Below are positions 9,725 to 24,700 of a stretch of 38,371 nucleotides of DNA, one piece after another. The position numbers and the translations under genes were made by a program. Below the pieces are notes generated by a model. The model saw nothing but the letters and a program-made list of their open reading frames with translations, was not told where the DNA came from and searched no databases. Each line of letters begins with the position of its first letter. Position 1 is the first letter of the stretch. Where the stretch lies: the NCBI GenBank assembly GCA_945915475.1, contig CAMEFI010000028.1, forward strand, positions 1 through 38,371, in the 5' to 3' direction. Origin of the DNA: an uncultured Clostridium sp. (GTDB taxonomy: Bacteria; Bacillota; Clostridia; Lachnospirales; Lachnospiraceae).

Positions 9725-9796
9725 GGCCAATTGGTCAAGCGGTTAAGACGCCGCCCTCTCACGGCGGAAACAGGGGTTCGATTCCCCTATTGGCTG
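9725..9796 (+). tRNA. tRNA-Glu (anticodon CUC), copy 1
   Basis: Folds as a complete 72-base cloverleaf: acceptor GGCCAAT with ATTGGCT (a G1-U72 wobble), D stem GTC/GAC, anticodon stem CCGCC/GGCGG with loop CCTCTCAC reading frame CTC at 9758-9760, T arm AGGGG-TTCGATT-CCCCT, and discriminator G at 9796, as expected for tRNA-Glu. CCA is not encoded. It reads GAG codons. The four-base variable loop also fits tRNA-Glu. Confidence 0.95.
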
Positions 9797-9852: not shown

Positions 9853-9924
9853 GGCCAATTGGTCAAGCGGTTAAGACGCCGCCCTCTCACGGCGGAAACA
9901 GGGGTTCGATTCCCCTATTGGCTG
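9853..9924 (+). tRNA. tRNA-Glu (anticodon CUC), copy 2
   Basis: Identical over all 72 bases to copy 1, starting 128 bases downstream. The 56-base spacer is not duplicated. It has no promoter of its own that I can see, so both are probably cut from one transcript that ends at the terminator at 9937-9968. CCA is not encoded. Confidence 0.95.
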
Positions 9925-14181: not shown

Positions 14182-14382
14182 ATGAGCATTTTGAACAACG
14201 ATGAAATTCCGGTAGGACTGAGTATGGCTTTGGCAGAGAATCTATATGCCATGGAAAAGTTCAGTAACATGAACGAAAGGGATAAACAAGAGTTTATCAA
14301 TCGGTCCCGGAATGTTAATTCTAAACAAGAGATGCGAAGTCTGGTTTCCGGTTTGAACAATATGGATGGAACTTTAAACTAA
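14182..14382 (+). CDS. Small conserved-looking protein of unknown function (66 residues)
   Basis: A short soluble protein, MSILNNDEIPVGLSMALAEN at the N terminus, then a helical region with AMEKFSNMNERDKQEF and SKQEMRSLVSGL. It has no membrane helix, Cys or DNA-binding motif that I can identify. A good ribosome binding site (GAGGTGAT at 14171-14178) and a strong terminator 34 bases after the stop support it as a real gene. It may be the last gene of the amidohydrolase/membrane protein unit, 49 bases after the preceding stop, or be independently expressed. Similar short proteins occur in Lachnospiraceae as I recall, but no function is known to me. Confidence 0.75.
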   Translation: MSILNNDEIPVGLSMALAENLYAMEKFSNMNERDKQEFINRSRNVNSKQEMRSLVSGLNNMDGTLN

Positions 14383-14415: not shown

Positions 14416-14447
14416 AAAAAAGGAACTGTTGTGACAGTTCCTTTTTT
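14416..14447 (+). terminator. Strong Rho-independent terminator
   Basis: A perfect hairpin: AAAAAAGGAACTGT (14416-14429), loop TGTG, ACAGTTCCTTTTTT (14434-14447). The A-run and T-run make it work in both directions. It closes the unit that starts at 11314. Confidence 0.93.
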
Positions 14448-14455
14448 GCGTTATA

Positions 14456-14470
14456 ATGATAATACAATGT
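14456..14470 (+). repeat. Left 15-bp direct repeat flanking the MITE-like element
   Basis: ATGATAATACAATGT, identical to 14678-14692; with the next A both copies agree over 16 bases. It is read as a target-site duplication. It overlaps a TATAAT at 14452-14457 that has a possible -35 TTGTGA (14429-14434) 17 bases upstream. Confidence 0.85.
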
Positions 14471-14677
14471 AGGCGTTTGCGAAACGCCTGTTTCTTCTAT
14501 AAACGTTGTGCAATTTGACAATATCCTCACAGGCACGCTTGCGCTGCTCTCGCCTCGCAGCGGTACTAAACTCGTGTTTCACACTCGTTAAGTACCGGCG
14601 GTCTCAAAGCACCTGCTTAGGATACTTGTCAAATCTGCACAACTCAATATGCATTTTCAAGAGTTTCGCAATTGCCT
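14471..14677. mobile_element. MITE-like non-autonomous element, 207 bp, long imperfect hairpin
   Basis: The ends are inverted repeats: the left end reads AGGCGTTTGCGAAAC and the reverse complement of the right end reads AGGCAATTGCGAAAC. Similarity continues inward for about 57 bases, including GTTGTGCA with TTTGACA on one arm and the matching GTTGTGCA with TTTGACA on the other, then ATCCT. The centre contains a second inverted pair, CGGTACT and AGTACCG. The whole element can fold into one long hairpin, has no credible reading frame, and is bordered by identical 15-bp direct repeats. It is more GC-rich than its flanks. It separates an upstream promoter-like sequence from the PPK2 gene. I cannot assign it to a named family. 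Confidence 0.85.
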
Positions 14678-14692
14678 ATGATAATACAATGT
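14678..14692 (+). repeat. Right 15-bp direct repeat flanking the MITE-like element
   Basis: ATGATAATACAATGT, the second copy of the repeat at 14456-14470, followed directly by the ribosome binding site region of the PPK2 gene. Removing the element and one copy restores an uninterrupted intergenic sequence. Confidence 0.85.
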
Positions 14693-14712
14693 ACGGAAAG
14701 GAGAAGGTGCCT

Positions 14713-16182
14713 ATGCTACAGGAGTGGAATAAAGGTGTGAAGCCCTCAGAAGATGAGTTAACGCAAAGACTTCAGGAAGCAAGAAGTAAGCTTGCAGCAA
14801 AGCAGATTCTGGTGAAAGAGAAAAAACTTCCGGTACTGGTATTGTTGGAAGGATGGGGTGCTGCCGGTAAAGGAAGTGTATTGGGGAAATTAATCCGTAA
14901 TTTGGATCCAAGGTTCTTTAAGGTTGCTGTCATGGAGGAACCTACCAAGGATGAATTACGAAGACCATTTTTGTATCGTCATTTCATAAGAATTCCGGAA
15001 GCAGGACAGTTTGTATTCTTTGATGGTGGCTGGATGGATGAGGTTACCAGACAGTATCTTCATGGCGAGATGATCAAAGATACATATAAGAAACGAATAG
15101 TAAGTATTAACCGGTTTGAACGTCAGCTCACCGACAACGGATATCTGGTTATGAAATTCTTTTTTGATATAGATGAAAAAGAACAAAAGAAACGGATAGA
15201 CAGTTTATTGGACAATAAGAATACAAAATGGCGTGTGACGGAAGCGGATCTATGGCAGAATCAGAATTATGATCGTTGCAGAGAAGTTTATCAACGGTAC
15301 TTAGAAGAGACAAATCGTTCTAACGCACCATGGTATCTGATTGATTCTAAGAATAAAAAATGGGCAGAACTACAAATGTTAGAGATTCTATTAAAGGGAA
15401 TTGATACGGCATTGATGAATGCTTCAAAGGCAGTACCGGTTTTACAGAATCCATTTCCATTAGATCCAATTCCAAGACTTTCTGATATTTCTTTGAAGGA
15501 TAAGGTACTGACAGATGAGGAATATCAGCTCCAATTAAAGGCTTGCCAGAAAAAGCTTCGGGAATTGCATAACAAACTGTATCGCAAACGGATACCGGTG
15601 ATTCTTGCATATGAAGGCTGGGATGCTGCCGGGAAGGGTGGTAATATCAAACGGATTGCTTCCGCCCTGGATCCAAGAGGGTATGAAGTACAGCCAATCG
15701 CAAGTCCGGAGCCTCATGAAAAGGCAAGACATTATCTATGGCGGTTTTGGAATCGCCTTCCGAAGGATGGACACATAACCATATTTGACCGTACCTGGTA
15801 TGGACGGGTCATGGTGGAGAGATTAGAGGGCTTTTGCAGTGAAAATGACTGGCAAAGAGCTTATAACGAGATCAATGAGTTTGAAAAAGAACTTGCTGAT
15901 TGGGGAGGTGTTGTAATCAAATTCTGGGTACAGATTGACAAAGATACCCAGTTGGAACGTTTTACTTTAAGACAGAATACACCGGAGAAGCAATGGAAGA
16001 TAACGGATGAGGACTGGCGCAACAGAGAGAAATGGGATTTGTATGAGGAAGCGGTAAATGAAATGCTGCAAAAGACCAATACACCATTTGCTCCATGGTA
16101 TGTTCTGGAGTCCAATGATAAAAAATATGCAAGAATCAAAGCTTTGAAGACGGTTATCAAAGAAATTGAAAAACGATTATAA
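14713..16182 (+). CDS. Two-domain PPK2-family polyphosphate kinase / polyphosphate:AMP phosphotransferase
   Basis: Transfers phosphate between polyphosphate and nucleotides (AMP to ADP in characterised two-domain PAP enzymes). The 489 residues contain two PPK2 domains. The first has a P-loop GWGAAGKGS (47-55), but its Walker B/lid region reads FFDGGWMDEV, lacking the usual D-R-x-W-Y. The second has GWDAAGKGG (302-310) and the complete FDRTWYGRV with Asp359, so it is probably the catalytic half. The ATG at 14713 is chosen because AAGGAG lies at 14698-14703; the frame stays open upstream to 14506, but that part is the MITE-like element. A remnant glucokinase gene follows 10 bases after the stop. 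The fusion is standard for this family class; the specific nucleotide is inferred. Confidence 0.93.
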   Translation: MLQEWNKGVKPSEDELTQRLQEARSKLAAKQILVKEKKLPVLVLLEGWGAAGKGSVLGKLIRNLDPRFFKVAVMEEPTKDELRRPFLYRHFIRIPEAGQFVFFDGGWMDEVTRQYLHGEMIKDTYKKRIVSINRFERQLTDNGYLVMKFFFDIDEKEQKKRIDSLLDNKNTKWRVTEADLWQNQNYDRCREVYQRYLEETNRSNAPWYLIDSKNKKWAELQMLEILLKGIDTALMNASKAVPVLQNPFPLDPIPRLSDISLKDKVLTDEEYQLQLKACQKKLRELHNKLYRKRIPVILAYEGWDAAGKGGNIKRIASALDPRGYEVQPIASPEPHEKARHYLWRFWNRLPKDGHITIFDRTWYGRVMVERLEGFCSENDWQRAYNEINEFEKELADWGGVVIKFWVQIDKDTQLERFTLRQNTPEKQWKITDEDWRNREKWDLYEEAVNEMLQKTNTPFAPWYVLESNDKKYARIKALKTVIKEIEKRL

Positions 16183-19484: not shown

Positions 19485-19487
19485 TAT

Positions 19488-19560
19488 CAGGTTGTGCGAC
19501 TGACGGAGACTGGGAGAACCCAGGGGGAACACAACACTATGAATGCCGACCGTCTGGGCA
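19488..19560 (+). promoter_or_regulatory. ZTP/ZMP riboswitch aptamer (pfl motif)
   Basis: Structure visible by eye: outer helix GTTGTG (19491-19496) with CACAAC (19530-19535), inner helix CTGGG (19510-19514) with CCCAG (19519-19523), the conserved-looking GGGGGAAC, a linker, and a 3' domain GCCGACCGTCTGGGCA (19545-19560) containing the class-typical CUGGGCA. The terminator that follows reuses bases of the 3' domain. The genes downstream encode the two last steps of de novo IMP synthesis. ZMP (AICAR 5'-phosphate) is the direct substrate of the second gene, matching the known role of this class as an ON switch responding to ZTP/ZMP when 10-formyl-THF is low. Confidence 0.92.
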
Positions 19561-19588
19561 CCGTTTTGGGAGACCAGGCGGTTTTTTT
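19550..19588 (+). terminator. Riboswitch-controlled terminator
   Basis: Arm CCGTCTGG (19550-19557) pairs with CCAGGCGG (19574-19581), followed by seven T (19582-19588). The 5' arm overlaps the aptamer's 3' domain (19545-19560), so ligand-bound aptamer and terminator are mutually exclusive. Confidence 0.88.
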
Positions 19589-24389: not shown

Positions 24390-24419
24390 ATACAATAGTT
24401 ATGGCTATGATAAGATCAA

Positions 24420-24700
24420 GTAGTAGAAAGCAGTCCCATACAGAAAGGTGCCGGTGGATGAGAGGCCCATGGAAGACTTTTTATGAATACCTCTTTGAGC
24501 TGCATACTGAACAGAATGTTTTACACAAGATGCATTCCAACTAGGCTATGCCGGGTGATATCCGTTAATATATCAAGTGTTGAGTTTGTATGAATATGCA
24601 ATGAGATACTTATGAGGCAGCAGATGTGAATCTGTTGTGAAGTTAGGTGGTAACACGGGAATTATGCTCTCGTCCTATGATATAGGACGAGAGCTTTTTT
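24420..24700 (+). promoter_or_regulatory. T-box riboswitch, tyrosine-specific
   Basis: The leader before tyrS has T-box organisation: a Stem I base GCAG (24430-24433) with CTGC (24500-24503), a distal region with GGTGCCGGTGG, a candidate specifier TAC (Tyr) at 24488-24490, and the T-box sequence AGGTGGTAACACG (24645-24657). The acceptor-pairing bulge reads TGGT, whose last base matches the A discriminator normal for tRNA-Tyr. A terminator follows at 24666-24700. Uncharged tRNA-Tyr would stabilise the antiterminator and allow tyrS expression. The specifier assignment is by eye and fits the downstream gene. Confidence 0.92.
24666..24700 (+). terminator. T-box terminator
   Basis: Perfect 13-bp arms GCTCTCGTCCTAT (24666-24678) and ATAGGACGAGAGC (24682-24694) with a 3-base loop and six T (24695-24700). 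It competes with the antiterminator formed by the T-box sequence. Confidence 0.95.

Follow-up and report, generated by a model that had tools for sequence, protein, structure and literature searches.

A MITE with IS1182-like ends and a conserved hairpin core, probably placed at a fixed distance from Shine-Dalgarno sequences in Lachnospiraceae

A 209-bp non-coding segment in front of a PPK2 gene of an uncultured Clostridium sp. (Lachnospiraceae) is very probably a MITE that combines the ends of an IS1182-like insertion sequence with an unrelated, conserved hairpin core and is sited at one fixed register to the Shine-Dalgarno motif. It lies at 14470..14678 on the + strand of the window, by which we mean the whole 38,371-nt stretch of DNA analysed. 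As far as the sequences tell, the element lands in front of a gene and leaves the ribosome-binding site whole.

The sequence-only reading of the window had described a hairpin segment between 15-bp flanking repeats. The two 15-mers (14456-14470 and 14678-14692) are indeed identical, and the identity even extends to 16 nt (ATGATAATACAATGTA), but the duplication proper is 13 nt long. Near-full-length copies and flank comparison were used to set the boundaries, and comparison with 34 other copies gave T as the first base of the element and A as its last (T AGGC...GCCT A). Because these terminal bases belong to the element, the element measures 209 bp and the target-site duplication 13 nt, with its left copy (TGATAATACAATG) at 14457..14469 and its right copy at 14679..14691, neither of which is assigned a strand. 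The extra identical flank bases are evidently chance matches of the neighbours to the element's own terminal bases. Of 38111 window positions, two (14456 and 14457) have an exact 15-mer that recurs at about this spacing, and each of the two belongs to the MITE pair. The left end, TAGGCGTTTGCGAAACGCC, occupies 14470..14488 (+), and the right end, GAGTTTCGCAATTGCCTA, occupies 14661..14678 (-). The segment was correctly described as GC-richer (47% GC against 36% in the left flank), and its imperfect terminal arms of about 57-60 nt and central inverted pair fold as claimed. The predicted 209-nt fold reached -79.3 kcal/mol on the + strand (z -8.3) and -90.9 kcal/mol on the - strand (z -9.2), and no shuffle was as low in either case. 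Among the listed frames (at least 80 aa) there is no transposase frame in the 209 bp; the only overlapping frame is the PPK2 frame extended upstream to a TTG at 14506.

A segment that is single-copy and conserved as a structured RNA had been named as a case against mobility. In the same genome (81 contigs, 3.09 Mb), however, 35 near-full-length copies share 88-100% identity and many are nearly identical; partial copies occur as well, four of them at contig ends. By the stricter method, 30 of the 35 are flanked by a duplication of 9-14 nt (mode 12), and the remaining five show none by the method used. Relatives with the same ends in this genome range from 205 to 577 bp, and deletion forms from 51 to 68 bp. 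As a side observation, a 524-577-bp family (L099, L100, L102, L105 and L117) shares both ends and core and has arms of more than 200 nt, some members carrying an extra insert beside the core. In four other copies (L021, L023, L024 and L028), the left- and right-type ends have changed places or are of one type, as would result from an exchange of arms. The 207-bp query matched in 25 of 60 genomes (own included), among them 22 of the 25 other genomes of the genus. With up to two mismatches allowed, the own genome contains 141 occurrences of the end motif TAGGCRWTTGCGAAAC and 14 of the reversed control; an exact variant was present in 22 of 25 genus genomes (own included), and the control gave no match. 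In 31 of the 35 copies, a reading frame (40 aa or longer) has its start codon 26-39 nt beyond the element. Pfam scanning of 20 of these 31 downstream proteins revealed unrelated genes, one protein having no match. Downstream genes include enolase, which is usually essential, as well as IlvD, HisB, a MutL-like protein, TrkA, MoxR and DeoR. Being short and multi-copy, with terminal inverted repeats, a duplication and ends common to an apparently autonomous element, the segment was aptly called MITE-like.

The proposal of a non-autonomous element mobilised in trans is supported by these copies and duplications, and also by intact insertion sequences that carry the same two ends, found in two genomes of the genus and in further named records. 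In G002 and G008, paired ends 1753 and 1770 bp apart bracket one 491-aa frame each, and the two predicted transposases are 86% identical to each other. The left end (19 bp) is the same in the MITE and the insertion sequence. The right end of the insertion sequence is GAGTTTCGCAATTACCTA, from which the right 18 bp of the MITE are one base off in L198 and two bases off in L199, and the difference between left and right ends is kept in both elements. The transposase scored above the cut-off for Pfam DUF772 and just below it for DDE models. Its best NCBIfam model was IS1182 (NF033551), with 77.5 and 70.8 bits against a curated cut-off of 270. With scores so far below the cut-off, the partner is called IS1182-like here and is not assigned to the family. 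D147, D288 and E433 are invariant in 15 transposase homologues, a pattern that we take to fit a DDE triad. Sequence comparison with solved structures gave no match at E 0.01, and the AlphaFold model was unusable (mean pLDDT 42).

A scan of named genomes gave 59 insertion-sequence loci, two of which (L242 and L252) are the same-genus copies again. Most are labelled Lachnospiraceae or Butyrivibrio, Lacrimispora, Hungatella or Mediterraneibacter, and a few only Clostridia, Eubacteriales, Bacillus sp. or Firmicutes. Among 39 loci hand-picked for examination as more complete, 34 had both ends, and 21 of these 34 had a duplication of 10-14 nt; the other 13 had none by the method used, the flanks of at least three of them being cut by a contig end. 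Searches for the transposase were positive in 9 of 26 genomes of the genus (full length in two) and, at the level of the family, in 24 of 120, where some matches are distant. No transposase of the IS1182-like group was seen in the own genome, DDE_Tnp_1 (PF01609) as a candidate partner had no match there, and no ITR-bounded transposase was present in 14 readable small contigs (20 were taken; six, under 3 kb, read as N). A collapsed insertion sequence could hide in the contigs that read as N. One small contig carried IS21-type genes, as judged by eye. Distant IS1182 relatives (L351 and L352) have other ends and, by eye, no evident adjoining Shine-Dalgarno motif. On plasmid pCY360 of Butyrivibrio proteoclasticus B316 (L301), the insertion sequence abuts the right end of another copy, with the same 14-nt repeat between the two copies and on the far side; no gene was annotated at its transposase frame in the table used.

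The insertion sites were then aligned on the edge of the duplication and not on any motif. The set comprised 69 copies (35 MITE, 34 insertion sequences), of which 51 had a recognisable duplication (30 MITE, 21 insertion sequences). On one side or the other, the GG of an AGG stood at exactly +9/+10 from the duplication edge at 50 of these 51 sites, that is, at 30/30 MITE sites and 20/21 insertion-sequence sites, against a background of 0.078 per offset for a GG on one side or the other. No two of the 51 flanks are identical. The one locus that misses the register, L267, does have a duplication. When only mismatch-free duplications were counted, 44 of 45 sites were in register. AGG started at +8 in 48 of the 51; between +15 and +45 it started at any one offset in about 1 of 51, and no other near offset exceeded 5. 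A logo set of 50 sites that had a duplication and passed a Shine-Dalgarno filter (29 MITE, 21 insertion sequences) showed A at +8 in 27/29 and 21/21, respectively, and G columns of 2.0 and 2.0 bits for the MITE and 2.0 and 1.7 bits for the insertion sequences. The filter excluded L006, L250, L261 and L265; L006 has a duplication and fits the register when counted without the filter. No Shine-Dalgarno-like motif lies near three of the 34 insertion sequences, and near a fourth (L244) there is only a weak one.

The gene-proximal edge of the duplication is thus placed 8 nt before the GG, and the gene-distal edge varies, lying 9-14 nt further upstream. The register was replicated in other species of the genus, where 28 elements were found in the loci examined, 19 with a duplication and 15 in register. 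After the window's own locus (L218) was subtracted, 14 of 18 MITE copies, from 10 genomes, were in register; four were off, two of them by one base. In the window itself, the Shine-Dalgarno motif of PPK2 (AAAGGAG, 14697..14703, +) has its GG (14700-14701) at +9/+10 from the duplication edge. The earlier reading placed the insertion point between a promoter-like sequence and PPK2 and overlooked the fixed distance to the Shine-Dalgarno motif. All 31 insertion sequences that passed a loose motif filter (L244 weakly) point their left end toward the motif, whereas 18 MITE copies do so with the left end and 16 with the right, which counts against the reading given here. An apparent insertion inside a coding frame (L030) was not clear and was dropped.

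On the simplest reading of these 51 sites, AGG would be recognised as DNA by the transposase or by a host factor that binds the motif. One strand would be cut 8 nt before the GG and the other 9-14 nt upstream. Shared ends, duplication length and target register together point to mobilisation of the MITE in trans by the partner transposase, which would have acted in this lineage. The palindromic insert in the leader may be tolerated because the ribosome-binding site is kept, and an insert that leaves this site intact fits the presence of copies before usually essential genes.

The middle of the MITE contains a three-way-junction-like core with covarying pairs (14522..14623, +, covariance-model match). 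The core alignment comprised 24 sequences, of which four came from the own genome, 18 belonged to the same genus and two to one other genus (G033); it had 29 pairs, 18 of which showed changes on both sides. Paired cells amounted to 96.3% against 84.4% in shuffled alignments, and the covariation score was 0.362 against 0.140, with none of 500 shuffles reaching the observed value. When partners were slid, paired cells fell to 24-42%, a comparison in which the structure is favoured over the slid versions since it was derived from the same alignment. A covariance model built from the alignment was positive in 7 of 196 genomes of the class, namely the own genome and six of the seven others of its family; the remaining 188 gave no match under strict filters, which lose weak matches. 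There were 49 core matches in the own genome and 6-44 each in five family genomes. Outside the genus, 25 core copies lacked the TAGGC ends, and their distal arms differed between copies and still paired, as judged by eye. Four of seven odd core matches checked in the own genome likewise lacked these ends. Stand-alone cores on long hairpins with such arms are seen in other genera at L121, L122, L127, L128, L134, L135 and further loci, and L127 and L128 seem to represent one locus in two species, its arms different but still paired. The core was absent from 31 loci holding the insertion sequence. Since it is absent there and occurs alone elsewhere, the middle of the MITE is taken not to derive from the insertion sequence, and the MITE appears to consist of insertion-sequence ends joined around an independent structured repeat. 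Rfam 15 placed no family at gathering score over the element in the window, L100, L101 or L070, and no match at E up to 5 was obtained for window positions 14440-14710. At E up to 0.5, nothing exceeded the gathering score over the element in L100 and L104 (own genome) or in L070, L086, L089 and L090 (others). One weak overlap, with MIR6217 in L104, scored 23.2 bits where the gathering score is 110 and was taken as chance.

The conservation of the core raises an alternative in which the segment is above all a conserved structured RNA that regulates from the leader, its repetition being incidental and its mobility secondary. The covariation, well above that of shuffled alignments, speaks for it, as do the cores that lack MITE ends in other genera of the family and in four of the seven odd matches of the own genome. 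Duplications, insertion-sequence ends and 35 copies before unrelated genes are at odds with it. A leader RNA acting from one strand would also be a poor fit to MITE copies in both orientations to the gene (18 and 16) and to stand-alone cores with no obvious strand preference relative to neighbouring genes at 32 loci. We thus consider it unlikely, and a role of the core as leader RNA is possible. As for the structured RNA that had been named in the case against a mobile element, the centre does show conservation as a structured element, which the MITE carries and which is no alternative to it.

Other alternatives concern the target. That most own copies stand just before a reading frame, enolase included, could reflect survivorship, with insertions elsewhere lost for breaking genes or promoters. 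This would predict a spread of distances, yet the distance from edge to GG is constant at 50 of 51 sites, which makes survivorship very improbable. A melted promoter, either the -10 region or the transcription bubble of about 12 nt, might also be the target, the Shine-Dalgarno motif being merely nearby; the duplication length of 9-14 nt is close to the bubble size, and the sites are AT-rich. However, the best -10 match is scattered between -42 and +14 relative to the edge, in contrast to the fixed GG, and columns inside the duplication reach at most 1.0 bit against 1.7-2.0 bits at the GG, so that we regard a promoter target as extremely improbable. The IS1182-like transposase finally calls to mind IS1272, which in the part of the published account available targets inverted repeats and replaces them (PMC5678879). 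The chance that the present elements do the same is close to nil, because IS1272 is described there as making no duplication, in contrast to the 9-14-nt duplications here, and as lying downstream of the gene in the four near-gene cases given, in contrast to the upstream position here. The Shine-Dalgarno register therefore remains our preferred description of the target.

At the window locus, the two-domain PPK2, a polyphosphate:AMP phosphotransferase (TIGR03708, above cut-off), spans 14713..16182 (+) with its start codon at 14713. The promoter-like hexamers lie where they had been reported. One pair, TTGTGA-17-TATAAT (14429..14457, +), stands upstream of the MITE, and its TATAAT is separated from PPK2 by the element as described. 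The other, TTTTCA-17-TATGAT (14654..14682, +), spans the junction and is weak (9/12); both are called by consensus match only. PPK2 may be transcribed either through the hairpin or from the junction. A symmetric hairpin with an A-run and a T-run, terminator-like, lies at 14416-14447 between a small frame (about 14182-14382) and the upstream promoter-like sequence. The element is not a constant feature of PPK2 loci, which had been the other case named against mobility: by eye, of 12 other readable loci two have an element upstream, one has a possible remnant and nine have none, which is weak evidence because upstream gene order differs among relatives (16 loci were printed; L223, L225 and L233, mis-anchored, were left out). 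At L222 (G013), a separate MITE copy with a different duplication lies upstream of the PPK2 orthologue of another species. Elsewhere in the window, a T-box leader (24398-24680), a ZMP/ZTP riboswitch (19486-19566) and two tRNAs (9725-9796 and 9853-9924), all on the + strand, passed the Rfam gathering score. At L086, a TwoAYGGAY RNA (1079-1242, -; 88 bits) was found near a core copy.

MITEs are a known kind of element, with RUP and BOX of pneumococcus as examples among those of bacterial insertion sequences, and IS1182-like elements are likewise known. Like other bacterial MITEs, the present one is short and non-coding, has terminal inverted repeats and duplications, occurs in many copies and carries the ends of an autonomous element. 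It differs in its fixed register before the Shine-Dalgarno motif and in its conserved three-way-junction-like core, which is missing from the partner. Extragenic palindromes of the REP/BIME type resemble the stand-alone cores in being dispersed intergenic hairpins, but the cores are larger and have a junction, conserved unpaired bases and distal arms that differ yet pair. We know of no partner protein for the stand-alone cores. The partner agrees with IS1182-family elements, as far as the accessible portions of the IS1272 and ISPse1 papers describe them, in its size of 1.75-1.77 kb, its one 491-aa frame and DUF772 (PMC5678879, PMC3281130). About 16 bp of terminal repeat are also in common, and the partner stands apart in scoring below the curated NF033551 cut-off. 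According to the same portions, ISPse1 makes a 4-bp duplication (PMC3281130) and IS1272 none (PMC5678879), against 9-14 nt here, and IS1272 takes an inverted-repeat target (PMC5678879) in place of a Shine-Dalgarno motif. In the literature searched, which covered few subscription journals, we found no description of Shine-Dalgarno-registered insertion and nothing relevant on MITEs in Lachnospiraceae or on IS1182 with a MITE.

Among target-selective elements, the known targets are att sites, terminators, inverted repeats and tRNA genes. A fixed Shine-Dalgarno register would be another solution, since many genes offer such a site. Under such targeting, neither the coding sequence nor the ribosome-binding site would be damaged, and every insertion would alter a leader. 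It is conceivable, though we think it rather unlikely, that a whole transposon group homes on Shine-Dalgarno motifs and that its MITEs spread one three-way-junction RNA into dozens of leaders of unrelated genes, some of them essential, where the copies would jointly stabilise or tune mRNAs. The separate core represents a structured repeat across the sampled genomes of one bacterial family, and no Rfam model covers it. Taken as a system, the elements suggest a mode of landing in 5' leaders for which simple tests are feasible, both of the protein surface that would read AGG and of the effect that a leader hairpin may have on expression.
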